NCBI GenBank assembly: GCA_021816625.1
Contig: JAKAXM010000016.1
Location: forward strand, 2,978 to 51,206
Direction of reading: 5' to 3'
DNA: 48,229 nucleotides
Origin: Pseudomonadota bacterium
GTDB lineage: Bacteria; Pseudomonadota; Gammaproteobacteria; Acidiferrobacterales; Acidiferrobacteraceae
Numbering within the stretch: position 1 is the first letter of the stretch; every line of letters starts with the position of its first letter. The position numbers were made by a program, and so were the translations under genes. Below, piece after piece: positions 22,975-42,517 of this stretch. The notes beneath the pieces were generated by a model. The model worked only from the letters and a program-made list of their open reading frames with translations, was not told where the DNA came from and searched no databases.

Positions 22975-24629
22975 GGTTGCACCTCGTGTGAAGGATCCTG
23001 AGCCAAAAGCCGGCGACGTTGACCAATCCCGCCGGGCGTCGGCCCCAGGCCGCGAACGAACTCGGTCAACAGGCTGTCGGCATAGAGACCGCCATAGAAG
23101 TGGACGTAGGCGGCGCGCCCCAAGGCGGTTTGCGACAGGCGCGGCAGCAGCTGTTGAATGAAGAGCAGGGCCAGGAACGCGAGGCCGATCACCACGAGCA
23201 AGATCTGCTGCGCGATATCGGCATGCAGGGGCTCGGTCGGCACGCTGGTCCCGAGGAGACGGACGAAACCCATGTGGAGTGCGAAGTAGGCGACGGAGAC
23301 CAGGGCGCTCAAACCCGCCATGCGCAGGAGCAGACCACCCCTCGCACCGTCGCGGGCATTCAAGGCCTGCAATAGGAGCTGGGTCGTGCCCACGGCCAGG
23401 ATCGCCGCCATGACGATCAAGGCCGGCTGGCGCAGGAGACCTGCCCCGAACGCGGCCCCGACGCCGAGTACCATGAGGATCGCGATCACAAGCCCGAGCA
23501 GCGCCCGTTCGATGGTCGCGGCCATCGACACGATGGGTTTGGGCGCCCGGAAGTGTTCGACGACGCTCCCCGACGACAGGAAGGCGTGGGCCTTGTACAC
23601 GGAGTGCGCGATGATGTGCAGGACCGCGACGCTGTAGAGGCCGAGTCCGCATTCCATCAACATGAAGCCCATCTGCGCGCAGGTGGAATAGGCAAGGGCC
23701 CCCTTGATGTTGGTCATGGTCATCATCGTGAGCGAGGCCACCACGATGGACACGAGGCCGACCGCTGCTAGCACATCCCCGGCCCATCCCGCCTGCACCA
23801 TGAGCGGGCTTGCACGCAGGACCAAAAACGCGCCGGTATAGATGATGCCGGCATGCAGCAGGGCCGACACCGGGGTCGGGGCTTCCATCACCTGTATGAG
23901 CCAGCCATGGGACGGGAACTGCGCGCTCTTTAAAATAGCGCTTAACGCGATGAGCGCAGCGGCCGCTCCTAAGGCCTCCGGCAGCGGACCCCCGCTATGG
24001 GCCAAGGCCCGGGCGATACCCGCCCATTCCGTCGTATGGAGCGTGCGCACAATTAGGGCAAAGGCCGACAAGAGACACGCGTCGGCAATGCGATGAAGCA
24101 GATACTTCTTGCGGGCGGCGAGTACCGCGCCGGGCCGGTTGCGGTAAAAGGCGAGGAGCTCGTGGAGGCAGAGACTGGTGACCACCCACGAGACCCAGAA
24201 GCCCCACACATTGCCGGCCACGATGAGGGTCAAGAATGACCCAAGCGTCAAGGCCAACCAGCGGTGAAAGCGGCCTTCATGCTCATCACCATCCATATAG
24301 GTCTTCGAGAAGCGCGCCACGATCATGCCGACGAAGGCCACCAACGTCAGCATGATGATCGTGAGGACATTCACGTCGCTGCTGATGGCAAGCACTCCAA
24401 GGTGCGCCGGCAGGTGGAGGCTTAGGTAGGTCTCGGACCGGGTGGCACCCATGCCATAGGCGACGGCCGCCAGGATCGCGCAGCCGAGCGCGAACCACGC
24501 AGCCCCTGTCGTCGCAGCCCTCATGAGCCGCGGATGGCGATCGGCGCCTATCCCTACGACGAGGCCCACGGCCAAAAGCGGCCAGGGCGCAACCAACATA
24601 AACCGCGATGCCATTTCCGCGATCATCAT
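22971..24629 (-). CDS. dabB: inorganic carbon transporter membrane subunit DabB (NuoL-like)
   Basis: 552 residues from the ATG at 24629, with GGGAGGTG just upstream. A proton_antipo_M-type membrane protein with 13 or more helices, related to NuoL/MrpA, which conducts the cation that drives DabA. Conserved helix-loop features include LHELLAFYRNRP, ILKSAQFPSHGWLIQVMEAP (functional Lys and His), PTPVSALLHAGIIYTGAFL, STCAQMGFMLMECGLG and HSVYKAHAFLSSGS. First gene of a dabB-dabA operon on the minus strand. The AT-rich block at 24820-24880 is the likely promoter zone. Confidence 0.95.
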   Translation of the reverse strand: MMIAEMASRFMLVAPWPLLAVGLVVGIGADRHPRLMRAATTGAAWFALGCAILAAVAYGMGATRSETYLSLHLPAHLGVLAISSDVNVLTIIMLTLVAFVGMIVARFSKTYMDGDEHEGRFHRWLALTLGSFLTLIVAGNVWGFWVSWVVTSLCLHELLAFYRNRPGAVLAARKKYLLHRIADACLLSAFALIVRTLHTTEWAGIARALAHSGGPLPEALGAAAALIALSAILKSAQFPSHGWLIQVMEAPTPVSALLHAGIIYTGAFLVLRASPLMVQAGWAGDVLAAVGLVSIVVASLTMMTMTNIKGALAYSTCAQMGFMLMECGLGLYSVAVLHIIAHSVYKAHAFLSSGSVVEHFRAPKPIVSMAATIERALLGLVIAILMVLGVGAAFGAGLLRQPALIVMAAILAVGTTQLLLQALNARDGARGGLLLRMAGLSALVSVAYFALHMGFVRLLGTSVPTEPLHADIAQQILLVVIGLAFLALLFIQQLLPRLSQTALGRAAYVHFYGGLYADSLLTEFVRGLGPTPGGIGQRRRLLAQDPSHEVQP

Positions 24630-25950
24630 GAAACACCTCCCGTAGATCTGCTTGATCCTGCCTGTGCCACGATTCGAACCTCCCGCGTGATTGTGTTTGC
24701 CCCGGCGTTCACGGTGCATGAACGCAGGGCGCCTCGTGCGGGCGCACTCCTCGCACACCCTGGGGCCTTGCCGGCGCCCGTTGAGCGCTCACCCCTACGG
24801 CACGAGCCCACTCTATAGGCCCGATCTTATAACGGACACTTAATGTTTCAGATCCTAACTATTTACCACAGTGAATTATTATGGCGGCACGAGGGCAGGT
24901 TGCGGGCCCACAAGGACCGTACCCCTCCAGGTGCCGGCCGGTGGGCGCTGGCATTGAGGTAAAGTGCCGGGCATCCCAGGGAAGCGCCACGGACAGGATC
25001 AGCCTAGCCACTACGGGGGCGTATCCCCCCCGTGTATTGGGCCTTGTGATGCGGGCCCGACCACATGGCCTGCGCGTCCCGATGGAAGGCGCCAAGAGCG
25101 CCGTCACCCACTCGGTGCGCAGTCCAAGACATCGTGCTGGTTTGCGTTTCTGGGGTCCGATCGGCCGTGTGGTGTCCGCGCCCTCTCGCCGCTGGCCTTA
25201 CGCTCATGTCTTGTCTGCGCTACCTGCGCTCATAGACAAGAGTCGTCCAGATGTGGTTGGTCCTCTTATGGGTCCGGGCGACAATGATCACAAAAGCTCT
25301 GCGATAGCCGTGCAGTCTCTTGCTTTAGGTATCTGGACCCTTCTGGTAAGGGCCATGCCATGGAGATCTGTGAATCGAGATGCGTGCCGGAACGAACCGC
25401 CGCGCACCGGATGCCCTCCGATGCGCACTCTGCTGGCTGCGCCCATGGGTGGACTCCGGACCCAGAAAGGCCGCAAGCTCCCGCCTCGGTTGCAAGATTT
25501 TCCGTTACGACTGGGACTGGGGGCCAGTAGCCCCCTGACCCGACTCCCTCCATCCTTCGAATCTACCGGCGAATCTACCGGGGGCACCGAGGCAGGGCCA
25601 TGGGTTTGGGCAAGGCCGCGCAGCCAGTTATCGAGTGCTACGATCTCGCCCTCCAGGAACACGAGTTCCGACATGCCCACTGCGACCTGCAGCCTGCGTC
25701 TGCGGCTCGCCCCGTTTTGCGTATGGTGCCGAGTCCCCAGCAGCGCCTGGCCACGCGGCGGACCTACAGGATTTGGTAGTTCATCCTCGGCGCATAAGGA
25801 GGACGTGACCGCAGACACCGTGACCCTCGCGACCGCGGCACCCTGTCTCCTGGGCCGGCCCCTCTTCAGTTCTTCTTAAAACCGTCCTCCCGTCCCCCGC
25901 TCGATCTGGAACGCCGACCGGCATCTCTTTCGTGTCTCTCCCAACCCACT
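24630..25950. other. 1.3-kb gene-poor region between dabB and kdp
   Basis: No recognisable protein. Open frames exist on both strands (up to 332 codons, 24881-25879 plus), but their composition is Arg/Ser/Pro-rich with no domain pattern, and the minus-strand frame 25288-25818 has only one protein-like stretch (MSELVFLEGEIVALDNWLRG). Local structures are an exact tandem repeat of a 12-bp unit CGAATCTACCGG near 25557-25580 and a 6-bp stem hairpin at 25519-25535. It may be the decayed remains of mobile DNA, but no terminal repeats or transposase motif were found. Confidence 0.5.
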
Positions 25951-25953
25951 GTT

Positions 25954-25990
25954 ATAGCAAATAAAAATAAACTGGCATGCCGTTTGCTAT
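25954..25990 (+). promoter_or_regulatory. sigma-54 promoter with flanking inverted repeat upstream of kdp operon 1
   Basis: TGGCATGCCGTTTGCT (25973-25988) matches the sigma-54 consensus TGGCAYG-N4-TTGCW, with exactly 10 bases between GG (25974-25975) and GC (25986-25987). Transcription would start near 25999, 40 bases before the first start codon. An 8-bp perfect inverted repeat, ATAGCAAA (25954-25961) and TTTGCTAT (25983-25990), overlaps the -12 element. The sequence between is AT-rich, as expected of a regulatory site. Confidence 0.75.
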
Positions 25991-26038
25991 ATGGGCCTTG
26001 AGCGGACTTTCCGCGGCAACCTAAAAGGAGACACGGCG

Positions 26039-26131
26039 ATGGCATGGGTCTATGGCGGGGTCATTGTGGGGTTCTTCCTGGTATCGATCGGTTTTGCGGG
26101 GTTTTTGGAGCGCCTGCGGAGCGGTCTATGA
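26039..26131 (+). CDS. small single-helix membrane protein upstream of kdpF (operon 1)
   Basis: 30 codons. AAAGGAG upstream gives a strong ribosome site for the ATG at 26039. The product is one hydrophobic helix (GGVIVGFFLVSIGFAGFL) followed by a short basic tail (ERLRSGL). Its stop overlaps the kdpF start as ATGA. A similar small protein holds the same position in operon 2, which argues for a real gene. Perhaps a further small subunit or assembly factor of the Kdp pump; function not established. Confidence 0.65.
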   Translation: MAWVYGGVIVGFFLVSIGFAGFLERLRSGL

Positions 26132-26220
26132 GTCTTTTTGTCTGGGCAGCGCTTGCACTGGGGGCCGGTCTTTTTGTCTACCTCCTCGTTTTCTTGTTGA
26201 ACCCGGAACGTTTCCTATGA
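26128..26220 (+). CDS. kdpF: K+-transporting ATPase subunit KdpF (operon 1)
   Basis: 30 codons encoding a single helix ending in the KdpF-like motif LLNPERFL. KdpF is a lipid-like stabiliser of the KdpABC complex in the inner membrane. Identified by size, the C-terminal N/H-P-E-R-F pattern and position immediately before kdpA. Start and stop overlap both neighbours by four bases (ATGA). Confidence 0.85.
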   Translation: MSLFVWAALALGAGLFVYLLVFLLNPERFL

Positions 26221-27974
26221 AAATGGCTATAGAATCGTTGTTCGCTGTGATCGTGGCAGCATTGGTTTTAGGCGCGCCGCTTGGTCGCTACATGGCTCGT
26301 GTCTACGCGGGTGACACATTCTGGGTGACCAGATTCCTAGGCCCTATTGAAAGACTGATTTATAGCCTATCGGGTGTCCGTCAGAATGATGAGATGGACT
26401 GGAAGCGCTACGCCGTAGCGCTCCTAACTTTCAATTTCTTCGGTATGCTCTTTCTGTACGGACTGCTGTTGTGGCAGGGAGATCTTCCATTGAACCCTGC
26501 ACATTTTTCGGCGGTGACACATGCCCTTGCATTCAATACGGCGGCAAGTTTCGTCACCAACACCAATTGGCAGGCCTACGGCGGCGAGTCGACGATGAGC
26601 TATCTGTCCCAGATGCTCGGACTTACTGTGCAGAATTTTCTCTCGGCGGCTACCGGTATCGTCATAGTCCTCGCGCTAATCCGTGGGATTGTGCGGGCTA
26701 AGACCCGTCATGTGGGCAATTTTTGGGTCGATATGACCCGCACGGTCCTTTACGTGCTCTTGCCCTTGTCGGTCGTTTTGGCGATCGTCCTTATGGAGCA
26801 GGGCGCGCCACAAACTCTTTCTCCCTACGTCCATGCTCATCTGATCGCGCCTTTTACCAGCGGCAAGGCCCGGATTGCGGCGCAAACCATTGCCCTTGGC
26901 CCCGTCGCTTCCCAAGAAGCTATAAAACAGCTCGGCAACAACGGGGGCGGTTTCTTTAACGCCAATTCCGCGCATCCTTTCGAAAACCCGACAGCATTTA
27001 CCGACTACCTGCAGATGGTTGCCATGATCCTGATACCGACGGCCCTTGTCTTTATGTTCGGGCGCATGGTGGGAGATAGGCGTCAAAGCGGCACGATCAT
27101 TGCCGCGATGCTGATCCTGTTTGTCCCGTTGGCGCTTGCAAGCATGCGTGCGGATCTTGCCAACAATCCGCTTTTGCGCGGTCTCGGAATAGCCAGATCA
27201 CACAGCACCCTGTATGACGGCGGCGGTAATGTGGTGGGCGTCGAGGATCGGTTCGGTGTTGCCAATTCTGCACTATTTGGAAGTCTCGCGACCGCCACGT
27301 CCACGGGTGCGGCAAATAGCGCTTATGATTCTTTCATGCCTCTCTCGGGGCTCGTGAATCTATGCTTTATGCAGCTGGGGGAAACGGTTTTCGGGGGCGT
27401 GGGAACCGGACTTGCGACCATGTTGGCCTTTGTAATCTTTGCCGTTTTTATCGGCGGACTCATGATTGGTCGGACGCCAGAATATTTGGGCAAGAAGATT
27501 GAGTCCTTCGAGATCAAAATGGTCTCACTATCAATTCTGATCATGCCCCTTTTAGTGTTGATCGGGACATCAGTGGCCGTTGATTTTGCCGCGGGACGCG
27601 CGGGCACCTTCAATCCGGGACCCCACGGCTTCAGTGAAATCCTTTATGCCTTTACCAGTACCGCTAACAACAATGGCAGTGCGTTTGGTGGTTTGAGCGC
27701 CGACACGACGTTTTATAACGTGGCTACCGGTCTGTGCATCCTTTTTGGGCGCTACTGGAGTTATCTTCCGTTGCTCGCTTTGGCGGGAGCACTTGCAAAT
27801 AAGCAGAAATTACCTGCGAACGCAGGCACGTTGGGCGCACATGGTCCTTTATTTATGGGCCTTCTGATTGGCGTGATACTGCTTGTTGGTGCCTTGAACT
27901 TCTTCCCCGCGTTGGGTTTAGGTCCCATCGCCGAGCAGCTTTCCCACGTCCACGTTTTGGCCCATGCGCGCTAA
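26217..27974 (+). CDS. kdpA: K+-transporting ATPase subunit KdpA (operon 1)
   Basis: 585 residues; the potassium-channel-like subunit that binds and passes K+ into the pump. Start at 26217 overlaps the kdpF stop. The four pore-loop regions are recognisable: [39 protein letters not shown], the third near [20 protein letters not shown], and [13 protein letters not shown]. In the second loop the usual TNGGG reads NNGGG. Gene sequence appears less GC-rich than operon 2. Family signature [12 protein letters not shown] is intact. Confidence 0.96.
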
Positions 27975-27984
27975 AGGAGAGGGT

Positions 27985-30054
27985 ATGAAGGGGAATGTTA
28001 CCACGACGCCTAGCAGACTAGCCTGGGGTCGTTTGTCCAAGGAGGCGGCGGTCGACAGTTTTCGCAAGCTTACGCTACGTCACCAATTGCGGAACCCTGT
28101 TATGTTCGTCGTCTATGTCGGTGCGTGGCTCGTTCTCGCGCTTTTCGTACGCGACCTGGTAAGCGGCAGTGGGGGACAGTCCTCGTTTACGGGCTCGGTC
28201 GATGCCTGGTTATGGTTTACATTGCTCTTTGCCAATTTTTCGGAGTCGCTTGCCGAGGGTCAAGGTAAGGCGCAGGCAGCCAGTCTGCGTCAGGCGCGCC
28301 ATGAAGTATCGGCCAAGCGCTTGCAGCAGGCCGCGCGCAACAGCCCATTTGAGGTGGTGGCCGGGGCTGCGCTGCGGTCCGGCGATTACGTCCTGGTGGA
28401 AGCGGGCGATATCATGCCATCGGATGGCGAAGCGGTCATTGGGGTGGCGGCGGTCGATGAAAGCGCGATAACAGGCGAAAGCGCCCCTGTTATCCGTGAG
28501 GGCGGCGGCGATCGCAGTGCTGTAACGGGTGGTACGCAAGTCTTGTCGGATTGGCTCATCGTGCGCATCACCGCGGCGGCCGGGGACACATTTCTTGATC
28601 GTATGATTAAGATGGTTGAGGGTGCGTCGCGTCGGAAAACGCCAAACGAAATCGCTTTGGGTATTCTTTTGGTGGTGTTGACGCTCGTATTCCTGGTCGT
28701 CACCATAACGTTATTCCCATTCTCATGGTACGGTGTACATTATGCTGCGCACAACGGACGTGTCGTTGGCATAACGGTGTTGGTGGCCCTGCTCGTCTGC
28801 CTCATTCCAACGACTATAGGCGCATTACTGCCCGCGATCGGAATCGCGGGCATTATGCGTCTTCTGCGGGCTAATGTCGTGGCTACCTCGGGACGGGCAA
28901 TCGAAGCCGCAGGCGATGTGGATGTGTTGTTTCTGGACAAGACTGGGACGATCACCTATGGCAATCGGCAAGCGGCAGCCTTCTATGCAGCCGAAGGTGT
29001 CCCCTTGCCACGGCTCGTTGCCTGTGCACGCCACGCGTCCTTGGCAGACGGCACGCCGGAAGGCAAGAGCATTGTGGCCCTCGCCGAGACGCAATACGGG
29101 ATGCAAGGCTTGGGACAGCAAGAGGCGGGGACGCTGATACCGTTTAGTGCCGATACGCGTATGAGCGGCGTGGATGTAGCGGGGCGGCGTATTCGCAAAG
29201 GGGCCCCCGATGCCATCCGCGCATGGATCAGCAATCTGGGCGGAGACTGGCCGGCCGGTCTCGGCGAAGTCATAGAACAAATCGCAAGTGGTGGGGCAAC
29301 CCCGCTTGTCGTCTGCGAGGACGAGGATGTCCTGGGCCTTGTGGAACTGAAAGACATCGTAAAAGGCGGCATAAAGGAGCGATTTGCAGCTCTGCGTAAG
29401 ATGGGCATTCGCACGGTAATGGTGACCGGCGACAACCCGCTGACAGCGCGCGCCATCGCGACTGAGGCTGGGGTCGACGATTTTCTTGCGGAGGCCAAGC
29501 CCGAAGCAAAGCTCGCCCGCATCCAGGAGTATCACAGTCGAGGACACATGGTAGCGATGACCGGAGACGGGACCAACGACGCTCCGGCACTCGCGCAGGC
29601 CGATGTCGCGCTGTGCATGGCAAGCGGTACGCAGGCGGCGCGTGAAGCCGCCAATATGGTGGACCTTGATTCGAATCCCACTAAGCTTCTGGAGATCGTA
29701 GGGATTGGAAAACAGCTTCTCATGACTCGCGGATCTCTCACGACGTTCAGTGTTGCAAACGATGTTGCCAAGTATTTTGCGATTATACCGGCAGCCTTTG
29801 TCGGCACGTATCCGGCTCTTGCGGCCTTAAACGTTATGGATCTGAGTTCGCCGCGTCATGCAATCCTGGCGGCGGTAATTTTCAATGCCGTGGTCATACC
29901 GCTGCTCATACCGCTTGCTCTGCGTGGTGTCCGCTATAAAGCGGCCTCCGCGAAGGAGCTTTTGCGGCGCAACATATGGATCTACGGCGTCGGGGGGATT
30001 GTCGCTCCGTTTGTCGGTATTAAGCTGATCGACCTCCTTTTAACTTCTATGTGA
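27985..30054 (+). CDS. kdpB: K+-transporting ATPase ATP-binding subunit KdpB (operon 1)
   Basis: 689 residues from the ATG at 27985, which has AGGAG upstream; an earlier in-frame ATG at 27964 overlaps kdpA. P-type ATPase that energises K+ uptake. All catalytic motifs are present: TGES ([13 protein letters not shown]), the phosphorylated Asp in [12 protein letters not shown], nucleotide-binding KGAPDA, and the hinge [17 protein letters not shown]. Transmembrane helices lie near residues 30-75, 210-275 and at the C-terminus. Confidence 0.97.
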
Positions 30055-30066
30055 GGGCCACTATTT

Positions 30067-30666
30067 ATGATGGTGCGTGATATGAGGGCAGCAGGGATGC
30101 TGTTTGTTGCAATGGCGGCAATCACGGGTGTGATATACCCTTTGGCCATGCTGGGCGTCGGAGATATAGCCTTTCCGCATCAGGTTCATGGCTCGCTTGT
30201 GCGTTACCGGGGTCGGGTCGTGGGGTCGGTGCTCATAGGGCAGCGCTTCCGCGGCCCCCGCTGGTTCTGGGGGCGTCCGTCCGCCACCGCGCCCATGCCT
30301 TATAATGCAGCGGCGTCGACGGCATCGAACCTAGGCCCCACCAATCCCGTGCTCCGCGCGCACGTTCAGGCACGCATCGAGGCGTTGAAGGCCGCAAACC
30401 CCCGCGCCCATGGCCCCGTTCCCGAGGATCTCGTGACCTCGTCTGGAAGCGGTCTTGATCCGGATATCAGTATCGCCGCTGCTCGTTATCAGGTGCCACG
30501 GGTGGCAGAAGCGACCGGTTTTGCGAGAGGACGCCTCGAGCGCTGGATTGCGCGCGCGACTGTGTCGCCGGCCGCGGGTTTCATGGGGGAGCCTGTTGTG
30601 AACGTTCTGAAGCTCAATTTGGCGATCGCCCGGGCGCGGTTGGCGCAGCGAGCCAGGGGGGGGTGA
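30067..30666 (+). CDS. kdpC: K+-transporting ATPase subunit KdpC (operon 1)
   Basis: 199 residues, one N-terminal membrane helix and a periplasm-facing domain. KdpC signatures include GSLVRYRGRVVGSVLIGQRF, the FWGRPSA segment, ASNLGPTNPVL, and TSSGSGLDPDIS followed by a C-terminal VNVLKLNLAI. It stabilises the KdpAB complex and supports ATP binding. It starts 12 bases after kdpB. Confidence 0.96.
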   Translation: MMVRDMRAAGMLFVAMAAITGVIYPLAMLGVGDIAFPHQVHGSLVRYRGRVVGSVLIGQRFRGPRWFWGRPSATAPMPYNAAASTASNLGPTNPVLRAHVQARIEALKAANPRAHGPVPEDLVTSSGSGLDPDISIAAARYQVPRVAEATGFARGRLERWIARATVSPAAGFMGEPVVNVLKLNLAIARARLAQRARGG

Positions 30667-30818
30667 GTGATGTGCGGGGGTCCCGGCGCTCAGGCGGCCG
30701 GGCGGCCGGTGGCCCTAGGAGAGGATGATCCTTTCGTGGTAAATTGCGCCGTTCATCGGGCAGCCTTCACCGTTTTTCCCTTACCTGGTGGCTGGATGGG
30801 GACGGTGGCGCGGCGGTT
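30667..30818. other. gap between the two kdp operons
   Basis: 152 bases. No sigma-54 element with GG-N10-GC and a good -12 half was found, and no clear -35/-10 pair or strong terminator. Operon 2 may depend on read-through from operon 1 or on an unrecognised promoter. Confidence 0.4.
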
Positions 30819-30944
30819 ATGAGGGGTGGGGTGGTGTTTTGGATCATGGGGGTGGCCTTCGTTTTGGTTTACGCGGTCCTCGCGGGCCTCGTACGGTTTT
30901 CGGAATCCATCGTCCGCCCTCCCGAGGGAGGGGCGCGTGATTGA
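30819..30944 (+). CDS. small single-helix membrane protein upstream of kdpF (operon 2)
   Basis: 41 codons from the ATG at 30819 (GTG alternatives nearby); one helix (WIMGVAFVLVYAVLAGLV) and a tail RFSESIVRPPEGG. It shares with the operon 1 counterpart the helix pattern F-x-LV-x(3)-[FL]AG-[FL] followed by Arg, and the position before kdpF. The stop overlaps the kdpF GTG by eight bases. The ribosome site is weak. Confidence 0.5.
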   Translation: MRGGVVFWIMGVAFVLVYAVLAGLVRFSESIVRPPEGGARD

Positions 30945-31017
30945 TGTCTTGCTAGGGCTCGTTGTGCTGGTTGCGGGCTATCTGGTCTATGCCATTCTGC
31001 ACCCCGAGCGGTTTTAA
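30937..31017 (+). CDS. kdpF: K+-transporting ATPase subunit KdpF (operon 2)
   Basis: 26 residues from a GTG at 30937, preceded by GAGGGAGGGG. A single helix ending GYLVYAILHPERF, a close KdpF match. It lies 3 bases before kdpA. The start is inferred since no ATG fits. Confidence 0.85.
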   Translation: MIDVLLGLVVLVAGYLVYAILHPERF

Positions 31018-31020
31018 GGC

Positions 31021-32769
31021 ATGACGGCCTCTGCTGTGTGGCAGATCGTCCTTACGCTGCTCGTAGCCGGCGGCCTCAGTATTCCGCTCGGACACTATAT
31101 CGCGCGCGTGTTTTGCAACCAGAAGACGTTTTTGGACCCCATCCTGGACCCGGTCGACGCGCTCATATACCGCTTAATAGGCCGGGACGCCACGGGCCAG
31201 GCCATGAACTGGCGTGGTTATGCTGCCAGCATGTTGTGGACGAATGTCCTGATGGGGCTCGTCATTTACGTCCTTTTGTCTGCCCAAGGACATCTGCCGC
31301 TCAATCCCTTGCATTTCGCAGGGCTCAACCCCTTTCTTGCCTTCAATACCGCGGCAAGTTTCATTACCAACACGAATTGGCAGAATTACGCGGGGGAGTC
31401 AACGCTGTCGCTTTTTAGTCAGATGGCGGCGATCACCTTCCCTATGTTTACCTCGGCTGCGACCGGATTCGTCGTCGCGATAGCGTTTTTCCGAGCCCTG
31501 TCGGCGAACACGAGCCAGGGTGCGAACCTCGGCAATTTCTATCGGGATTTCGTGCGCGTCTTGACGCGCCTCCTGTTGCCGGTCTGTCTTGTCGTTACAC
31601 CCATCCTCGTTTGGCAGGGGTCCCCGGACACCTTGACGGGCATGGTCGTAGCCCACGGCCTTCAGGGGGGCGTCCAGCACATTCCTCTCGGGCCCGTCGC
31701 GGATCTTGAGGCCATCAAACATTTAGGGACAAACGGCGGCGGTTTTTACAACGCGAACTCCGCTCATCCTTTTGAAAACCCCACCCCTCTGTCAAATCTC
31801 ATAGAGACCTTGCTTATGATGGTGACGCCCATGGCACTGGTCGTTACCTTCGGGCGCATGGTGGAGAATGCGCGACTCGCACGGGTGATGTACGGCGTGA
31901 TGGCCCTTATGCTGGTGACGGCGCTATTCATAGCGGTCGGTGCCGAGCAGGCGGGGACTCCGCTTTTGACCCACGCTGGGATCATGCAGGCCCCAGGGCA
32001 CGGCCAAATGGGCGGGAACATGGTCGGTAAAGAGGTGCGCTTTGGCATCACGCAAAGCGCCATCTTCGATACGGTGAGTACGGCCTTTACGACCGGTACC
32101 GTAAACTCGATGTTGGATAGCTACACGCCCATGGGCGGAATGGTGTCGCTCGTGCAGATGATGTTGAACTGCGTATTCGGCGGCAAGGGCGTGGGGGTCT
32201 TGAATTTTCTCATGTACGGCATCTTCGCTGTATTTATTGCCGGACTCATGGTGGGGCGTACCCCCGAATTCCTCGGGAAAAAGATCGAGAAGCGCGAGAT
32301 CGTGTTGGCCTCCCTTGCGCTGCTCGTGCACCCCATCATTATCTTGATACCGACCGCCTGGTCCCTGCTCGCGCCTTACGGTGTGAGCTCGCTCGGCAAC
32401 AGCGGATCCCACGGCCTGTCCGAGGTTCTCTACGCCTTTACGTCGGCCGCCGCCAATAATGGGTCGGCCTTTGCCGGCCTAAACGGGAATACTCCCTGGT
32501 ACAACGTGACTTTGGGGCTTGTCATCTTGTTTGGTCGTTACGCCTCCATTATTTTCATGCTGGCTCTCGGAGGATCCCTGGCCGCAAAGCCGGCCGTGTC
32601 GGAAACGGTCGGCACGCTCAAGACCGATACGATGCTCTTTGGGGGATTTTGGCTTGCGACCATTGTCGTCGTGGGTGCGCTGACCTTTTTCCCGGTACTG
32701 GTGCTCGGGCCGATCGCCGAAGTTTTTGCGCTCTACGCGCACCACGCCACGGCGGGGGGGTTGCGGTGA
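31021..32769 (+). CDS. kdpA: K+-transporting ATPase subunit KdpA (operon 2)
   Basis: 582 residues, paralogue of the operon 1 KdpA. Pore motifs are [40 protein letters not shown], the third around GMVSLVQMMLNCVFGGKG, and TSAAANNGSAFAGL; here the second loop keeps the canonical TNGGG. Family motif GRTPEFLGKKIEKREI is present. The two KdpA proteins differ at many positions, so this is not a recent duplication. Confidence 0.96.
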   Translation: MTASAVWQIVLTLLVAGGLSIPLGHYIARVFCNQKTFLDPILDPVDALIYRLIGRDATGQAMNWRGYAASMLWTNVLMGLVIYVLLSAQGHLPLNPLHFAGLNPFLAFNTAASFITNTNWQNYAGESTLSLFSQMAAITFPMFTSAATGFVVAIAFFRALSANTSQGANLGNFYRDFVRVLTRLLLPVCLVVTPILVWQGSPDTLTGMVVAHGLQGGVQHIPLGPVADLEAIKHLGTNGGGFYNANSAHPFENPTPLSNLIETLLMMVTPMALVVTFGRMVENARLARVMYGVMALMLVTALFIAVGAEQAGTPLLTHAGIMQAPGHGQMGGNMVGKEVRFGITQSAIFDTVSTAFTTGTVNSMLDSYTPMGGMVSLVQMMLNCVFGGKGVGVLNFLMYGIFAVFIAGLMVGRTPEFLGKKIEKREIVLASLALLVHPIIILIPTAWSLLAPYGVSSLGNSGSHGLSEVLYAFTSAAANNGSAFAGLNGNTPWYNVTLGLVILFGRYASIIFMLALGGSLAAKPAVSETVGTLKTDTMLFGGFWLATIVVVGALTFFPVLVLGPIAEVFALYAHHATAGGLR

Positions 32770-34835
32770 GCGAGACGGCGGTCCCTGGCGCGGCGGTGAG
32801 CACGCCTGGGCGTCCGGGCAACGCCCATCTCGTGCGGCAGGCGACCGTCGAGTCTCTGAAGAAATTCCGACTGGCCGTCCAAATCCGCAACCCCGTCATG
32901 TTCATCGTGTGGTTGTCGATGTTCGTGACGTTGGCCCTAACGTTCGATCCGGATCTCTTTGGAAAGAGCACCGCTAGTGCTGCCTATAACGGCCTTGTCA
33001 CCGTTATCTTGTTTTTTACGGTCTGGTTTGCCAATTTCGCGGAGGCGCTGGCGGAGGGGCGGGGCAAGGCACAGGCCGATACCTTGCGACAGACCAAGAC
33101 CGACGTAACGGCACGGCGCATCGGTCCCGGCGGGGCCATCGAGGTGGTCGCGGCCGGGGCCTTGCGCAAAGGCGATCGTGTCCGCGTGGAACGTGGGGAT
33201 ATCATCCCGACGGACGGTGAGATACTCGAAGGCATTGCCTCGGTCGATGAGTCCGCGATCACCGGGGAGTCGGCCCCGGTTTTGAAGGAGCCGGGCAGTG
33301 ACACGTCCTCGACTGTGACGGGGGGGACGCGCATCCTTTCCGATTGGCTCGTTTTCAAGGTCTCGGCCGATCCCGGGCATACCTTTCTTGACCGCATGAT
33401 TCATCTCGTCGAAGGCGCGAAACGACAAAAGACCCCCAATGAGATTGCGCTCACGGTTTTGCTCGCGGTGCTTAGCCTCATCTTCGTGGTGGTGGTCGCA
33501 ACCCTAAAGCCGCTTGCCGCATTTCTTCATATCCACCTCGATGTCGCTACCTTGATTGCCTTGCTCGTGGCCTTGATGCCCACGACGATCGGTGCCCTGC
33601 TGTCGGCTATCGGTATCGCGGGGATCGACCGCGCGACCCGCTTCAATGTACTCGCTATGTCGGGCCGGGCGGTTGAGGCGGCAGGTGATGTGCAGACACT
33701 GATTCTGGACAAGACCGGCACCATTACCATGGGTAATCGGCAGGCGACCGAGTTTGTGGCCTTGCCCGGGCACTCCGCAAGCGAGGTTGCCGCGGTGGCG
33801 TTGGCCGCGTCTTGGTACGACACGACTCCGGAAGGGCGGTCTATCGTCGCCCTCGCGGTGACACAGGGCGCCAAGCACGACCCGGCGTGGGATACGGCGC
33901 AGGCCGTGGAGTTTAGCGCGGAGACGCGCATGAGCGGCACGAACTTGAGCGATGGCCGCAAGGCCCGCAAAGGCGCGGTGGCGGCGGTCGCCCGCTATGT
34001 TCAAGACGGTTTCAAGGCTGTGGTGCCGCCGGAACTGAAGGACGCCGCCGAGCTCGTTGCGCGACAAGGGGCGACCCCGCTTGCGCTGGCGCTCGATGGC
34101 GATGTAATCGGCGTGATCGCCCTGGCCGATGTCTTAAAGCCTGGCATGCGCGAACGTTTCGCGCATATGCGCGGACTCGGTATCAAGACCATCATGGTCA
34201 CGGGTGATAACCCGATCACGGCGCGGGTGATCGCAGAACAGGCGGGGGTCGACGATTTTGTGGCCGAGGCCAAGCCTGAGGACAAGATCCGCGTCATCCG
34301 CTCGGAACAGGCGCGGGGCCGGCTTGTGGCGATGACCGGAGATGGTACGAACGACGCGCCGGCGCTCGCGCAGGCCGATGTGGGGCTTGCCATGCATTCC
34401 GGTACGGTGCCCGCGAAGGAGGCCGCGAACATGATCGATCTCGACTCGGACCCGACTAAATTGATCGACGTCGTGGCGATCGGCAAACAGCTTTTGATTA
34501 CGCGGGGGGCATTGACGACGTTTTCGATAGCCAACGACGTCGCGAAATATTTTGCGATGCTGCCGGCCATGTTCATGCTGGCCTTGCCGGGCGTCTCGGA
34601 ACTCAATGTCATGCATCTGGCGACCCCGGAGAGCGCCGTATTGTCCGCGCTCATCTTCAACGCCATCATCATTCCGTTTTTGATACCGCTCGCGTTGCGT
34701 GGCGTCCGCTTCCAGCCTGCGACGGCCAATGCGATGCTGGCCCGTAACGTCGTCATTTACGGTCTGGGCGGACTGATCGTGCCGTTTCTCGGCATCAAGA
34801 TCATCGATCTCATCCTAAGTCCGTTGTTGCGTTAG
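32766..34835 (+). CDS. kdpB: K+-transporting ATPase ATP-binding subunit KdpB (operon 2)
   Basis: 689 residues from a GTG at 32766 whose bases overlap the kdpA stop (GTGA); the frame could be extended upstream but that part overlaps kdpA. Catalytic motifs: [32 protein letters not shown] in the nucleotide domain, [18 protein letters not shown]. Same length as the operon 1 KdpB but clearly diverged, for example near the N-terminus and in the nucleotide-binding domain. Confidence 0.97.
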   Translation: MSETAVPGAAVSTPGRPGNAHLVRQATVESLKKFRLAVQIRNPVMFIVWLSMFVTLALTFDPDLFGKSTASAAYNGLVTVILFFTVWFANFAEALAEGRGKAQADTLRQTKTDVTARRIGPGGAIEVVAAGALRKGDRVRVERGDIIPTDGEILEGIASVDESAITGESAPVLKEPGSDTSSTVTGGTRILSDWLVFKVSADPGHTFLDRMIHLVEGAKRQKTPNEIALTVLLAVLSLIFVVVVATLKPLAAFLHIHLDVATLIALLVALMPTTIGALLSAIGIAGIDRATRFNVLAMSGRAVEAAGDVQTLILDKTGTITMGNRQATEFVALPGHSASEVAAVALAASWYDTTPEGRSIVALAVTQGAKHDPAWDTAQAVEFSAETRMSGTNLSDGRKARKGAVAAVARYVQDGFKAVVPPELKDAAELVARQGATPLALALDGDVIGVIALADVLKPGMRERFAHMRGLGIKTIMVTGDNPITARVIAEQAGVDDFVAEAKPEDKIRVIRSEQARGRLVAMTGDGTNDAPALAQADVGLAMHSGTVPAKEAANMIDLDSDPTKLIDVVAIGKQLLITRGALTTFSIANDVAKYFAMLPAMFMLALPGVSELNVMHLATPESAVLSALIFNAIIIPFLIPLALRGVRFQPATANAMLARNVVIYGLGGLIVPFLGIKIIDLILSPLLR

Positions 34836-34853
34836 GGCGCTAAAGGAGAGTCC

Positions 34854-35510
34854 ATGTCGCATCCCTTGGCTACGGCCCTACGCTTTACTCTCATCACGTG
34901 GCTTTTATGTGGCCTCGGTTATCCCTTGGTCGAGGTCGCGATAAATCAGGTCTTGTTTCCAGCGCAGGCCAATGGCAGCCTCATCCGTGTGCAGGGGCGG
35001 GTGATCGGGTCGCGGCTCATCGAGCAGGCCTTCACGGGTCCCCGGTGGTTCCACGGCCGGCCGTCTGCCGTACACATGAACCCCACGCAATCGGGGGCCT
35101 CCAATCTCGGACCTTTGAGCCGCCGCTTGGCCCGCCATCTCGCCCGCCGCCGGGCCCGGCTCGTAGCGCAGCACCCAAGCCTTGCCGGACGCAGGCTACC
35201 TGCCGACATGATTACGAGCTCCGGTTCCGGTCTGGATCCCGACATAAGCCCGGCCAACGCCTATCTCCAGGCTCGCTGGGTGGCTCGGGCGCGGGACGTG
35301 CCGCTGGCCAGGCTGCGGGCGTTGGTCGGCCGTCACATCCAAGGGCCCTGGCTTGGCCTTTTTGGTCAGGCCCGCGTCAATGTGCTTGCGCTCAATCTCG
35401 CCCTAAGCCGCGTCGGCCATACGCGGCGTGCTAGGATGGGCATGGACAGACCCGAACGCGGTCATCGTGGCCGCCGGTCTGTAAGAGGCCATGAACGAAC
35501 CTCAGGCTAA
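34854..35510 (+). CDS. kdpC: K+-transporting ATPase subunit KdpC (operon 2)
   Basis: 218 residues; ribosome site AAAGGAG just upstream. N-terminal helix (LITWLLCGLGYPLVEVAI), then GSLIRVQGRVIGSRLIEQAF, RWFHGRPSAVHMNP, ASNLGPLS, ITSSGSGLDPDIS and VNVLALNLAL. A basic tail of about 25 residues extends past the usual end and overlaps the start of the kdpD-like gene by 20 bases. Confidence 0.95.
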   Translation: MSHPLATALRFTLITWLLCGLGYPLVEVAINQVLFPAQANGSLIRVQGRVIGSRLIEQAFTGPRWFHGRPSAVHMNPTQSGASNLGPLSRRLARHLARRRARLVAQHPSLAGRRLPADMITSSGSGLDPDISPANAYLQARWVARARDVPLARLRALVGRHIQGPWLGLFGQARVNVLALNLALSRVGHTRRARMGMDRPERGHRGRRSVRGHERTSG

Positions 35511-36660
35511 GCCGTCTTCCTCTGAAGAGGACATCCTAAAGACCCTCAAGGAACGTGCCGCGGGCCGACTGAAAATCTACATTGGCTCGGCGGCAGGGGT
35601 GGGTAAGTCATACCAGATGCTTCTCGAGGCCCAGCGCCTGCGCGCCGAAGGCATCGATGTCGTCCTGGGGTATATCGAGACCCATGGGCGGGCCGAAACG
35701 GCGGCGCTCGTGGGCGATCTCGAGAAGATCCCCTTGCGGCAAATCCGGTATCAGGAGCGGGTCTTTGACGAAATGAACCTGCCCGCGATCCTGGCTCGGC
35801 GCCCACAGCTCGTCGTGGTAGACGAACTTGCGCATTCCAATATCCCAGGCACCGAACACCCCAAGCGTTACCAGGATGTCGAGGACATTTTGAAGGCGGG
35901 GATCAATGTTATATCCGCCGTCAACATTCAGCACATCGAGAGCCTAAACCCCTACGTCGAGCGCCTTACGGGCGTCAAGGTGCGCGAGACCATACCCGAC
36001 CGCGTCCTTGCACTGGCAAGCGAGATCATCAATATAGACCTGTCGGTGGAGGATCATAGGGAGCGGCTGCGGCGCGGGAAGATTTATCCAGCCGAGAAGG
36101 TCGAGAGCGCCTTGCGGGGTTTCTTTACTCCTGAGAATCTCGCGGCCATGCGCGAGATGGCGCTACGCGAGGTGGCAAGCAAGGTCGAATACCAGACCGA
36201 GGAGCAGAGGCTCTTGCGGGAGGCGGGCCCTTTGCGGCGGCCGGACCGCGTGATGGTGTGCCTGGGACCGGACCACGCCGCCAATGTGGCCCTATTGCGG
36301 CGCGGCGCACGGGTCGCCGGTCGTCTCAATGCAGACTGGTTTGCCGTCACGGTCGTGCGCCCGGAGCTTGCCCCGGGCATGGCGCTAAGCCCGGTCCGTA
36401 AGGAATTTTTGAAGCTCGAGCGCCTTGCCGAGGAACTGGGCGCCCAATTTCGGGTGTTAGAGGCCCATAGCGTCCTCGACGCCCTCGTAAGCTTTGTCGA
36501 GGAACACGGGATTACCATGGCCTTGTTCGGCAAGAACCGGCATGTGGGCTGGCGCTTGCGGATGTTCAAATGGCTCACGCTCGAGTTTTTGAACCACACG
36601 GATGGTGTCGATGTGCAGATCGTTGATACCGCTGAACGAGACATTTCCGGGCGCCATTAG
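35491..36660 (+). CDS. kdpD: stand-alone KdpD sensor domain plus universal stress domain (no kinase)
   Basis: 389 residues. Residues about 25-235 are the KdpD family domain with Walker A GSAAGVGKSYQM (near 32), Walker B LVVVDELAHSNIPGTEH and INVISAVNIQHIESLN. Residues about 245-385 are a USP-type domain (DRVMVCLGPDHAAN to FGKNRHVGWRLRMFK). The four-helix DUF4118 region, GAF, HisKA and ATPase of full KdpD (about 890 residues) are missing; the gene ends cleanly at a stop, followed 8 bases later by a separate histidine kinase. It probably senses cytosolic K+ or nucleotide and controls that kinase, or binds nucleotides such as c-di-AMP as USP domains of some KdpD proteins do; this is inference. 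Confidence 0.9.
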   Translation: MNEPQAKPSSSEEDILKTLKERAAGRLKIYIGSAAGVGKSYQMLLEAQRLRAEGIDVVLGYIETHGRAETAALVGDLEKIPLRQIRYQERVFDEMNLPAILARRPQLVVVDELAHSNIPGTEHPKRYQDVEDILKAGINVISAVNIQHIESLNPYVERLTGVKVRETIPDRVLALASEIINIDLSVEDHRERLRRGKIYPAEKVESALRGFFTPENLAAMREMALREVASKVEYQTEEQRLLREAGPLRRPDRVMVCLGPDHAANVALLRRGARVAGRLNADWFAVTVVRPELAPGMALSPVRKEFLKLERLAEELGAQFRVLEAHSVLDALVSFVEEHGITMALFGKNRHVGWRLRMFKWLTLEFLNHTDGVDVQIVDTAERDISGRH

Positions 36661-36668
36661 GACATATC

Positions 36669-38474
36669 ATGTTGAGATCCCTTAGCAATCGCCTCATTCT
36701 TGCCATATTGGCCCTGGTCCTTTTGCTCGGGATCCTAGGGGCGCTTTTGGTGACGCGTATAAGCCGCTTGGGGGATCTCACGGATGTCGTCTTACAGGCC
36801 AATGCCGAGTCGGCTGCCACTATGAGCACGATGCGTAGCGCCGCCTCCCTTTATAGGCTCGCCGGTGATCCCAAGGCGCAGGCGCGCGTGGTCAAGCATT
36901 TTGCCGATGCGGGGCGGCGTTTTGAGGGTGCAACCCGGGGTCTCGGTCTCAGTCAGGATTTCAGCCGCCTCAAACAGGCGTGGCAAGCCTACAGGCAGGC
37001 GCCGAGCCCTCGAACCCTCACAGTCGTTGATGGCGACCTTCACCATTTGAAGGGGCGCCTGCGGCAGGCCCTGGCGCACCGCGAGCGTCATGCGATTGCT
37101 GCGATTAAGGAGCTCACCATATTTGCCGCGCTCGGCCTTGCGGCCTCCTTGCTCGTTGTGCTGATTCTGTCGGTGTTGATGGTGCGCCTCATATTGCGTC
37201 CCATGCGTCAGTTAGCGCGCAGCATTCACGACCTGAATCCCTCGGGCCTGCACCGCGAACTGGAGCGTTACGGACTGTCGGAATTCGATGACCTTACGCG
37301 GGAGTTCAACGGATTATTGCGCCGCCTCGAAAAGCACGAGCGCATCAGCACCGACAAACTTGTGTACGAAAACGCGAAGATCGACGCGCTCATAAATTCC
37401 ATCGATGACGGCCTTGTCCTCCTCGATCGCCAGGGGAAGATCCTGCACGTCAATTTCATGGCGGGCATGCTTTTGCAAAGTGAACCAAGCGATCTGCTCG
37501 GCCGCAATATCAACGATCTCAATATTGCTACCCGCTTCTATATGAATTTGCGCAATGCCCTCGTGTCGTTGCGCCGGGAGGAGCAGGATGAGCCACAATA
37601 TAGCCGCAATGAGTTCTCGCTCACGATCCGTGGTCGCCTACACTCCTACATATTGAAAACGGTACCATTTCGCGATAAGGGCCGTGCGATCATCGGGCTT
37701 ATTGTCGTGCTACAGGATGTTACAGAACTCCGTCATGCTGAACACCAGCGTAGCCAGCTCTTGGCAACCCTGTCTCATGAACTGAAGACGCCGCTTACGA
37801 GCCTCAGTCTCAGTGTCGGAACGCTCTACGAAACGGCGCAGCAGGAGAATTATCCTAGTCAGATTCGCCAGTTGCTTGATGTCGGCAAGGAGGAGGTCGC
37901 GAGGCTGACCATGCTGGTCGAGGACCTCCTGGATGTTTCGCGGCCCGACGCCATTCGTACGAGCATAGATTTAAAGCGTCTCGAATTATGCGAGTTTCTG
38001 CGGCGCCAAGCCCATTCCTTTCGTTTGCAAGCCGATCTCCAGGATGTGGATCTCGTCGTAAGCTGCCTGCCAGAGATTGCGCTGAACGCCGACCCTATAA
38101 AGCTCGGCTGGGTCTTCAATAACCTTTTGTCAAACGCCTTGCGCCACACGCCTGCGCACGGCCAAGTGACAATATCCGTGACGCCCGCCAATACTGACGA
38201 GGTTTTGATCGAGGTTACCGACACGGGCCGCGGTATACCTGCCGAAGAATTACCGCGTATCTTCGAGTGGTTTACGCAAGGCGCCTCCGACGCGTCTGGT
38301 TCCGCCGGGATGGGTCTTGCGATCGTCCGCGAAATGGTCGAGGCCCATGGCGGGCAGATTACAGTGACATCAAAGGTCAACGAAGGGACACGTTTCCGGA
38401 TCAACCTGCCGCGCCATATGACTGAAGCCGATCTCCCCTTACAGCCCGTAGTCCCAGCGCCACCGGGCGCTTAG
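36669..38474 (+). CDS. membrane histidine kinase (HAMP-PAS-HisKA-HATPase) of the kdp cluster
   Basis: 601 residues. Helix 1 at about 8-28, a periplasmic segment of about 110 residues, helix 2 near 152-175, HAMP (about 176-230), PAS (about 245-360, LINSIDDGLVLLDRQGKILH), HisKA with the phosphorylated His at 370 (LSHELKTPLTS), and an ATPase domain with NNLLSNALRHTP, DTGRGIP and GMGLAIV. The phospho-relay partner is probably the NtrC-type regulator downstream, and the signal may come through the KdpD-like protein encoded immediately before. It is not the KdpD kinase half: it lacks the DUF4118 four-helix bundle. Confidence 0.93.
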   Translation: MLRSLSNRLILAILALVLLLGILGALLVTRISRLGDLTDVVLQANAESAATMSTMRSAASLYRLAGDPKAQARVVKHFADAGRRFEGATRGLGLSQDFSRLKQAWQAYRQAPSPRTLTVVDGDLHHLKGRLRQALAHRERHAIAAIKELTIFAALGLAASLLVVLILSVLMVRLILRPMRQLARSIHDLNPSGLHRELERYGLSEFDDLTREFNGLLRRLEKHERISTDKLVYENAKIDALINSIDDGLVLLDRQGKILHVNFMAGMLLQSEPSDLLGRNINDLNIATRFYMNLRNALVSLRREEQDEPQYSRNEFSLTIRGRLHSYILKTVPFRDKGRAIIGLIVVLQDVTELRHAEHQRSQLLATLSHELKTPLTSLSLSVGTLYETAQQENYPSQIRQLLDVGKEEVARLTMLVEDLLDVSRPDAIRTSIDLKRLELCEFLRRQAHSFRLQADLQDVDLVVSCLPEIALNADPIKLGWVFNNLLSNALRHTPAHGQVTISVTPANTDEVLIEVTDTGRGIPAEELPRIFEWFTQGASDASGSAGMGLAIVREMVEAHGGQITVTSKVNEGTRFRINLPRHMTEADLPLQPVVPAPPGA

Positions 38475-38632: not shown

Positions 38633-38656
38633 CTTTGATGGGAGATGGTACCGTCA

Positions 38657-39829
38657 ATGCCTTCCGTTCTGATTGTCGATGATGATCGCAAGATTCGTCT
38701 TACGCTCAGCATTTTCCTCGAGCGTCGCGGTTACCGGGTCCGCGACGTCGCCTCCGTAAAGGCCGCATTGACCGCATTGAAGGAGTTTCGTGCGGATATT
38801 GTCCTGTCCGACCTCAAGATGGAGGGCGAAAGCGGGATAGAGCTCATAGCCGCTCTGAGGGCCGATTATGCGGCGATCCCGGTAATTATTATGACCGCCT
38901 TTGCGAGCGTGGAGAAGGCGGTCGAGGCGATAAAGATGGGGGCTGCGGATTTTATCGTAAAGCCATTTGCCCCAGCCGAGATCGAGCAGCTCCTGGCGCG
39001 CACAGTGCGTATTCAGGGTCTGGAGGCAGAGAACCGGAATCTGCGGGCGGTTCTTGGCCAAAACGACATCCTGACGCGGTCCGAACCACTGCGTCGTATT
39101 TTGGCGATGGCCGAGCGGTTTGCGAAGAGCGAGGCGACCGTTCTCGTATTGGGCGAGAGCGGAACCGGTAAAAGCATGATAGCGCGGCGGATCCATGCGG
39201 CAAGCCCCCGCAGTCAGGGGCCGTTTGTGGAGGTGAATTGCGCAAGTCTTGCCGAAACCCTTCTTGAGAGCGAGCTCTTCGGGCATTGCAAGGGGGCATT
39301 TACGGGCGCCCTGAAGGACAAGATAGGGCGCCTGGAGGCAGCCGACGGGGGGACACTTTTTCTAGACGAAGTCAGCGAGTTGTCGCCAGAGGGCCAAGCC
39401 AAGCTCCTCCGTTTCCTTCAGGACAAGGTTTTTGAACGAGTCGGCGACCTGACGACGCGTGCCGTCGACACACGAGTCATCGCAGCCACCAATAGGAACT
39501 TGCGTGATTTGGTGTCCGGGAAGGGGTTTCGCGAGGATCTGTATTACAGACTTAATGTTGCGGAAATCTCTATGCCGCCCTTACGGCAGCGCCGCGATGA
39601 CCTACCCGTTCTGGTCGAGCGGTTTCTGGCGCAAGCGGCGGCCCGCAATGGCCTTTCGTCGATTCCGGTTCTCGATGATGAGGTCAACGCGCAGTTTGCC
39701 CGCTACAATTGGCCAGGTAACGTTCGGGAACTTCAGAATGTTATCGAGCGTTGCGTCATTTTGGCGGGCGCGGGACGTATCACCATGGAACATCTTCCTG
39801 ATCGGTTATTAACGTACCCGGCGTCCTAA
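38657..39829 (+). CDS. sigma-54 activator response regulator lacking DNA-binding domain
   Basis: 390 residues from the ATG at 38657 (an ATG at 38645 touches GGAG). Receiver domain 1-115 with VLIVDDDRKI, phospho-acceptor in IVLSDLKMEG and FIVKPFAP. AAA+ domain about 130-375: Walker A LGESGTGKSM, the sigma-54 contact loop KGAFTGALKD, Walker B GGTLFLDEVSEL, FREDLYYRLNV and the C-terminal WPGNVRELQNVIERCVIL. It ends at LPDRLLTYPAS without the Fis-type helix-turn-helix that NtrC proteins carry (family length about 440-480). So it can presumably activate sigma-54 RNA polymerase, but binding to DNA must be indirect or from solution, as described for FlgR and CtcC-type regulators. Last gene of the kdp regulatory set. 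Confidence 0.93.
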   Translation: MPSVLIVDDDRKIRLTLSIFLERRGYRVRDVASVKAALTALKEFRADIVLSDLKMEGESGIELIAALRADYAAIPVIIMTAFASVEKAVEAIKMGAADFIVKPFAPAEIEQLLARTVRIQGLEAENRNLRAVLGQNDILTRSEPLRRILAMAERFAKSEATVLVLGESGTGKSMIARRIHAASPRSQGPFVEVNCASLAETLLESELFGHCKGAFTGALKDKIGRLEAADGGTLFLDEVSELSPEGQAKLLRFLQDKVFERVGDLTTRAVDTRVIAATNRNLRDLVSGKGFREDLYYRLNVAEISMPPLRQRRDDLPVLVERFLAQAAARNGLSSIPVLDDEVNAQFARYNWPGNVRELQNVIERCVILAGAGRITMEHLPDRLLTYPAS

Positions 39830-42304: not shown

Positions 42305-42369
42305 CCGGCCATGTGTTCCGGGCCCCGGGGTAGCCGCGCGCTCGGGGTGTCCCGGACCGCACCCGTTTC

Positions 42370-42399
42370 TTGTCTATTCCCCACCGAAATTGCTACACT
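42370..42399 (+). promoter_or_regulatory. possible extended -10 promoter of the hemerythrin-GGDEF-EAL gene
   Basis: TTGTCT (42370-42375), an 18-base spacer and TACACT (42394-42399) preceded by TGC. Transcription would start near 42406, leaving about 110 bases before the GTG at 42518. No riboswitch pattern is recognised in that leader. Confidence 0.45.
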
Positions 42400-42517
42400 C
42401 GGAGTAGGTGTTTTGGTGTCGCCGTGGCCCGAAGTGGATTCCGGCGACCATTGCGGCCTCGCGGTCGCCGGCGGGGCTCTGAGGGGCGAACGCGGCCCCA
42501 TAAACGGGTCACTGAGC

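Follow-up and report, generated by a model that had tools for sequence, protein, structure and literature searches.

Kdp is the textbook KdpDE operon. Desulfovibrio vulgaris, which belongs to a different phylum from the bacterium considered here, possesses DVU3334, which we take to be a regulator of the sigma-54 type. DVU3334 regulates its own kdp operon (DVU3334-3339), with KdpD split into a sensor and a kinase protein, and predicted sigma-54 promoters are marked among the targets covered by that study; the targets of DVU3334 were mapped by DNA binding and its motif is conserved, and thus DVU3334 binds DNA (PMC3333781). Sigma-54 activators of another kind are (i) FlgR of Helicobacter pylori, which governs flagellar genes and exerts its effect through contact with the closed complex and not through attachment to DNA (PMC3930126), and (ii) CtcC of Chlamydia, about 4% of sigma-54 activators being devoid of a DNA-binding and/or a signal domain (PMC3162934). 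As regards KdpD, its N-terminal serine kinase domain phosphorylates KdpB and shuts the pump in other bacteria, and stand-alone KdpD-Usp proteins, which have the N-terminal KdpD domain without a histidine kinase, are thought to phosphorylate KdpB; they occur mostly in species without KdpE and are taken to act on the pump only (PMC11018627). Acidophiles are believed to build up a protective membrane potential by taking up K+ (PMC9062700, PMC8886135). In Acidihalobacter aeolianus, a regulator of the sigma-54 type is mentioned close to kdp, and the arrangement of kdpD and kdpE is much like that of Escherichia coli (PMC9062700). For Acidithiobacillus, it has been suggested that its kdp genes were acquired by transfer, the donors being Acidiferrobacter-like bacteria (PMC8886135).

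In this study, a window of 48,229 nucleotides (the whole stretch of DNA analysed) from a member of the Acidiferrobacteraceae was found to carry two kdp operons in tandem (kdpABC1, 26217-30666, and kdpABC2, 31021-35510), followed by genes for KdpD, a histidine kinase and a regulator (Table 1). This locus has the KdpFABC pump and the N-terminal domain of KdpD in common with the canonical KdpD/KdpE-kdpFABC system of E. coli (PMC11018627), and differs from it in having a KdpD without the kinase module, an NtrC-type regulator, no KdpE that could be found and a predicted sigma-54 promoter. It resembles DVU3334-3339 in its similar wiring, with a split KdpD and a probable regulator of its own kdp operon (PMC3333781). 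However, DVU3334 binds DNA, whereas the present regulator is devoid of a DNA-binding domain, as are FlgR and CtcC. Of 17 relatives from the genus and family, 14 show the order kdp, short KdpD, kinase, regulator on a single contig of the fetched DNA (in this count, the regulator of G012 lies in two frames, the loci of G003 and G009 are split over contigs and that of G011 is cut off; G numbers denote genomes and L numbers loci).

Table 1. Features of the kdp locus within the analysed window.
Feature	Position	Strand	Sequence	Remarks
IHF-like box	25942..25954	+	CAACCCACTGTTA	YAA-N4-TTGATW, 2 mismatches
Inverted repeat, left arm	25953..25961	+	TATAGCAAA	not conserved; taken as accidental
Sigma-54 promoter (predicted)	25973..25988	+	TGGCATGccgtTTGCT	-24 TGGCATG, -12 TTTGCT
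Inverted repeat, right arm	25983..25991	+	TTTGCTATA	contains the -12 element
Predicted transcription start	25998..26000	+		placed some 12 bases beyond GC, as is usual for sigma-54
First small ORF, operon 1	26039..26131	+		30 aa, hydrophobic; AAAAGGA at 26023-26029
kdpF-like ORF	26128..26220	+		30 aa; named by reading, not family search
kdpA1	26217..27974	+		PF03814 3e-232, TIGR00680
kdpB1	27964..30054	+		TIGR01497
kdpC1	30067..30666	+		PF02669
Element ahead of kdp operon 2	30733..30759	+	TTCGTGGTAAATTGCGCCGTTCATCGG	recurs in the genus, by eye
kdpF-like ORF, operon 2	30937..31017	+		by reading
kdpA2	31021..32769	+		family profile search
kdpB2	32775..34835	+		TIGR01497
kdpC2	34854..35510	+		family profile search
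Kinase-less KdpD	35491..36660	+		389 aa; PF02702 4e-89; Walker A-like GSAAGVGKS
Separate histidine kinase	36669..38474	+		601 aa; HAMP-PAS-HisKA-HATPase
NtrC-type response regulator	38645..39829	+		394 aa; REC-AAA+ (GAFTGA)-lid, no HTH

The surroundings of the locus yielded several further observations. Upstream of kdp, on the reverse strand (20470-24758), lie a gene for a DabA inorganic-carbon transporter and a Proton_antipo_M (DabB-like) gene, and downstream of the regulator, on the forward strand (42311-45208), a hemerythrin-GAF-GGDEF-EAL protein of 965 aa is encoded. A pattern scan found a receiver-histidine kinase hybrid-like protein (named by reading) within the kdp stretches of 6 of 15 relatives' loci (L163:124-1287, L159, L155, L169, L167 and L172), and an 85% identical match to it is present in the window at 12533-13615 on the reverse strand, about 12 kb from the kdp promoter.

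The first-pass annotation had placed a near-consensus sigma-54 promoter ahead of kdp operon 1. Within TGGCATGCCGTTTGCT, GG (25974-25975) and GC (25986-25987) are indeed separated by 10 bases, and the stretch 25973-25988 has this GG-N10-GC arrangement in the context TGGCAYR-N4-TTGCW. It is the sole match to TGGCACGN4TTGCW with at most one mismatch on both strands of the 48 kb window. With up to three mismatches, 72 matches were counted in the window against 80.5 expected, and therefore only near-exact sites are informative. In the whole genome (2.19 Mb), the exact pattern TGGCAYGN4TTGCW occurs four times and its reversed version twice, while a laxer sigma-54 pattern gave eight exact matches against four for the reversed control. 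A single near-exact site is thus within genome-wide chance, and the case for a promoter has to be made from its place and its conservation. Counts only about twice those of the reversed control would also agree with a chance sigma-54 look-alike, in which case sigma-70 would transcribe operon 1 and a KdpE-like protein, its gene lying elsewhere, would control it. The kdp operon of E. coli uses sigma-70. Its control by KdpDE (PMC11018627) likewise speaks for that alternative.

As for its place, the site is followed after 50 bases by a 30-aa ORF, and this ORF, the kdpF-like ORF and kdpA1 successively overlap by ATGA. ORFs resembling the first one were seen by eye upstream in relatives; it is conceivable that its product is a small extra Kdp component or a leader peptide. 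Transcripts made with sigma-54 usually start about 12 bases past GC. A hairpin at the corresponding mRNA 5' end (26003-26015) was considered and rejected (mean z of -0.29 over 15 promoters, compared with -0.30 over 75 control windows). The -24 element also shares bases with a small palindrome, GGCATGCC (25974-25981). A simple scan of 25400-26500 found no sigma-70-type site, although only 0.3 would be expected by chance.

Conservation was surveyed in 18 genomes of the family (its own, 13 others of the genus and four from two other genera) by scanning up to 1.5 kb upstream of the fetched kdpA frames, with GG and GC fixed and at most two mismatches. A sigma-54 site was found in 15 of the 17 upstream regions of first or only operons that were scanned (13 with at most one mismatch). 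Two regions lacked it, that of G012 and that of G003, whose contig leaves only 363 bases to scan; the first operon of G007 starts at a contig edge and falls outside the test. The site of G003 is located on another contig, whose promoter region shares 663 of 814 aligned bases with the corresponding region in G005. Hence, 16 of the 18 family genomes have the site in front of their first or only kdp operon, one lacks it and one falls outside the test; the scan of homologous upstream regions for the -24/-12 motif, which the first-pass annotation had proposed, shows the motif to be conserved. GGCA and TTGCT are invariant across the 15 kdp promoters compared. Additional matches with two mismatches besides the main site are few (in G006, G014 and G016). 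For G002, G005, G006, G009 and G014, in each of which a single operon was in view, the kdpA frame begins 527-923 bases downstream of the site, and the link of the site to kdp is therefore less direct there. The second kdp operons (counting kdpA2 of G007 and leaving out the cut kdpA2 of G011) have the site in 0 of 9 cases, and a sigma-54 promoter ahead of operon 2 as well is thus ruled out; when longer stretches were scanned, G007 gave a single site with two mismatches, far upstream (3.9 kb scanned), and G012 gave none (6.7 kb scanned).

Two sets of controls were applied. Among 1500 Markov-shuffled 1-kb kdp upstream regions, a site turned up in 13 when up to one mismatch was allowed and in 138 when up to two were. 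At kdp loci outside the family, of which about 1.1 kb was scanned, the corresponding counts were 1 of 72 and 8 of 72 (Fisher test of family versus outside, 2e-11 and 1e-9, related genomes being counted as independent). As a separate observation, two relatives possess a third kdpA on the reverse strand (L154:4036-5868 and L170:6844-8580), 69-70% identical to kdpA1, with a sigma-54-like site (two mismatches) 407 (L154) and 500 (L170) bases upstream; no kdpB or kdpC was found near it in the 11-15 kb fetched.

A chance look-alike would hardly be found in 16 of 18 genomes, given the shuffled and outside-family controls. Moreover, the KdpE-like regulator that it calls for was not found: none of the three PF00486 (OmpR-type) proteins of the genome could be identified as KdpE, two of them being PhoB and OmpR (above the NCBIfam cut-off) and the third having no family match at 1e-20. 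Together with the result of the sigma-70 scan, this makes control of operon 1 by sigma-70 very improbable. Judging from the sequence, 25973-25988 is a real, conserved sigma-54 (-24/-12) element preceding kdp operon 1.

An 8-bp perfect inverted repeat overlapping the -12 element had also been annotated. The repeat and the overlap were confirmed, but the arms are 9 bp long, with a spacer of 21. Such a structure might be an operator, a repressor or regulator binding TATAGCAAA-N21-TTTGCTATA and blocking or positioning the sigma-54-polymerase at -12, and the perfection of the arms and their overlap with the promoter are what this proposal has in its favour. Nevertheless, a partner of the -12 flank was absent from all 15 other kdp promoters (the best having 6 of 9 arm bases within 40 bases upstream) and also from two paralogous sites; the TTGCT part of the right arm is conserved, as the -12 element. 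Perfect 9-bp repeats with a spacer of at most 30 begin at 38 positions of the window (8-15 in five shuffles), so one such repeat is unremarkable, and the regulator linked to kdp is devoid of a DNA-binding domain with which to occupy it. The suggested operator is therefore not borne out by homologous upstream regions, and we consider it most improbable; since the repeat is not conserved, we read it as accidental and without a role.

The sigma-54 activator that had been reported at the end of the same locus is indeed encoded there (38645-39829), with REC and AAA+ domains, Walker A and B motifs and GAFTGA, and RpoN is encoded in the genome. A Pfam scan found no C-terminal HTH in this regulator, which suggests an activator without a DNA-binding domain and not a classical enhancer-binding protein. 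Orthologues from 16 of the 18 genomes were aligned, leaving out G011, in the assembly of which the regulator was not found though the sigma-54 site is present, and G012, in which it is split over two reading frames (L168:14163-15336). All 16 stop just after the AAA+ lid and are 65-85% identical, and since they end at about the same place, shortening by a local frameshift is ruled out. The REC phospho-acceptor and the Walker residues are kept among them, and the loop reads EAFTGA in one (G013). G012 is also the sole genome without the site; its split frame may be real decay or an assembly error, and because this assembly is 77% complete, the joint loss is merely suggestive. Among 369 genomes of the class, with at most five first-look candidates scored in each, an orthologue at E<=1e-115 was found in only two, both of this genus. 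The regulator can be tied to kdp by gene linkage, by its absence together with that of the site in G012 and by a shared distribution, both being restricted to one lineage among the genomes searched.

The genome contains nine PF00158 matches, six of them strong. HTH_8 is present in all five other strong activators and not in the kdp regulator (the three weak matches being left out). This distinguishes the present case from FlgR of H. pylori (PMC3930126): with five HTH activators in the same cell, the selectivity of a regulator without a DNA-binding domain must come from elsewhere. The regulator could also have its target elsewhere, and one of these five activators could work at the promoter in its stead.

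The DNA further upstream bears on this point. An AT-rich tract runs from an IHF-like box to the -24 element. The consensus of IHF is WATCAAN4TTR, which corresponds to YAA-N4-TTGATW on the opposite strand. With at most two mismatches, 13 of 15 promoters have this box at -31/-32, counted from the T of TGG, and the copy in G003 (one mismatch) brings the total to 14 of 16; the 11,640 position tests gave only 11 further matches, some overlapping the same site. When the last 45 bases were shuffled, the box appeared at the fixed place in a mean of 0.24 and a maximum of 2 of 15 promoters. The copy in the window has two mismatches among nine fixed positions, and such matches number 126 in the window against 140 expected; as they are as common as chance predicts, it is only the fixed position that constitutes evidence. 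Both ihfA and ihfB are encoded in the genome (above the NCBIfam cut-offs). Classically, an IHF box serves to loop an enhancer-bound activator to the promoter, and insofar as it is tied to looping, it is a poor fit with an activator that has no DNA-binding domain.

Accordingly, the promoter may be real and yet driven by an HTH activator bound upstream, with IHF looping, or by mixed rings of such an activator with the kdp regulator, which alone would be insufficient. The five HTH_8 activators and the fixed IHF-like box, a classical part of looping promoters, speak for this, as do mixed activator rings, which are known with FleT in Rhodobacter sphaeroides. A motif sampler run on 14 promoters (G013 being excluded as a near-twin of G001) adds a little: at -250..-40 (relative to 25973 in the window), a shared pattern scored 208.8 bits, above all 20 shuffled controls (185.4-195.7). 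However, this pattern (16 bases, ending in about CCGAG) is weak, non-palindromic and scattered over places and strands, and looks unlike an enhancer; it is inflated by relatedness, and kinship together with the gene upstream in some genomes may be its cause. At -150..-33, the observed score was reached by 4 of 20 controls, whereas the promoter itself was found by the sampler at once (316.5 versus 169.8-181.3). Considering also that the regulator gene is linked to kdp and, in the genomes searched, confined to the lineage, we regard an upstream-bound activator as unlikely.

The sensor encoded at the locus was compared with known KdpD proteins. Its best NCBIfam match is KdpD_non_kinase (373.7 bits, under the model cut-off of 550); it ends at 389 aa without the kinase module, so that the fused histidine kinase of the KdpDE system is lacking, and a Walker A-like motif, G-X5-GKS, is retained in it. 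Among 73 loci outside the family, KdpD is at least 840 aa long in 58, shorter in three and beyond the stretch in 12, and it is thus a long protein there wherever it could be seen. Elsewhere in the class, 3 of 42 KdpD matches are short, besides two of the genus. Short KdpD proteins of L205 and L207 stand beside regulators with OmpR-type tails (by reading), and L206 lies at a contig edge; no such regulator was seen at L208 and L209, which were fetched as well. A general gammaproteobacterial module of non-kinase KdpD and sigma-54 regulator was also considered and is unsupported, two of the three further short-KdpD loci having a regulator of another type.

The explanation that we favour as a whole, and consider likely, is that the sigma-54 promoter drives kdp operon 1, that the linked regulator acts on it from solution, that IHF aids and that the repeat is idle. 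Operon 1 is probably switched on by this neighbouring regulator without a DNA-binding part, and we infer activation from solution by analogy with FlgR. Low K+ or membrane stress would lead the histidine kinase to phosphorylate the regulator, which would then form an ATPase ring and open the RNA polymerase-sigma-54 complex with no need of an enhancer site, while IHF bound at about -51 would bend the DNA and help to hold the polymerase at the promoter. The kinase-less KdpD may mainly act on the pump rather than on transcription, given its Walker A-like motif and the phosphorylation of KdpB by this domain in other bacteria. It is also possible, though we lean against it, that the locus forms a dedicated enhancer-free switch in a genome that otherwise has several ordinary enhancer-binding proteins. 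In that case, loss of the DNA-binding domain from the regulator would predate the diversification of the family, and the promoter would be chosen by its core and an IHF bend against the polymerase, IHF being a specificity or recruitment element and not a looping aid.

Under the favoured explanation, operon 2, with the sensor genes, would be transcribed from a different promoter, which would supply the sensors before induction. Most genomes of the genus (own genome, G001, G004, G005, G007, G008, G010, G012 and G013) have, by eye, an element read as TTCGTGGTAnATT some 300 bases before kdpA2, which was not seen in the two other genera. Its recurring form is TTCGTGGTAnATTttGCCGTTyATCGG, and its copy at 30733-30759 is perhaps the promoter from which operon 2 is transcribed along with the sensor genes.

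In the accessible portions of the open-licence literature, no report of a sigma-54 kdp promoter in this lineage was recognised. Sigma-54-type control of a kdp system with split KdpD has a precedent in D. vulgaris, and what would be new here is a regulator without a DNA-binding domain. An acidophile-related lineage appears to have rewired kdp to sigma-54 with split sensing. This offers a natural case for asking by what means an activator that lacks a DNA-binding domain is directed to its promoter amid several other sigma-54 activators, for which the family provides 16 promoters and 16 regulators for comparison.
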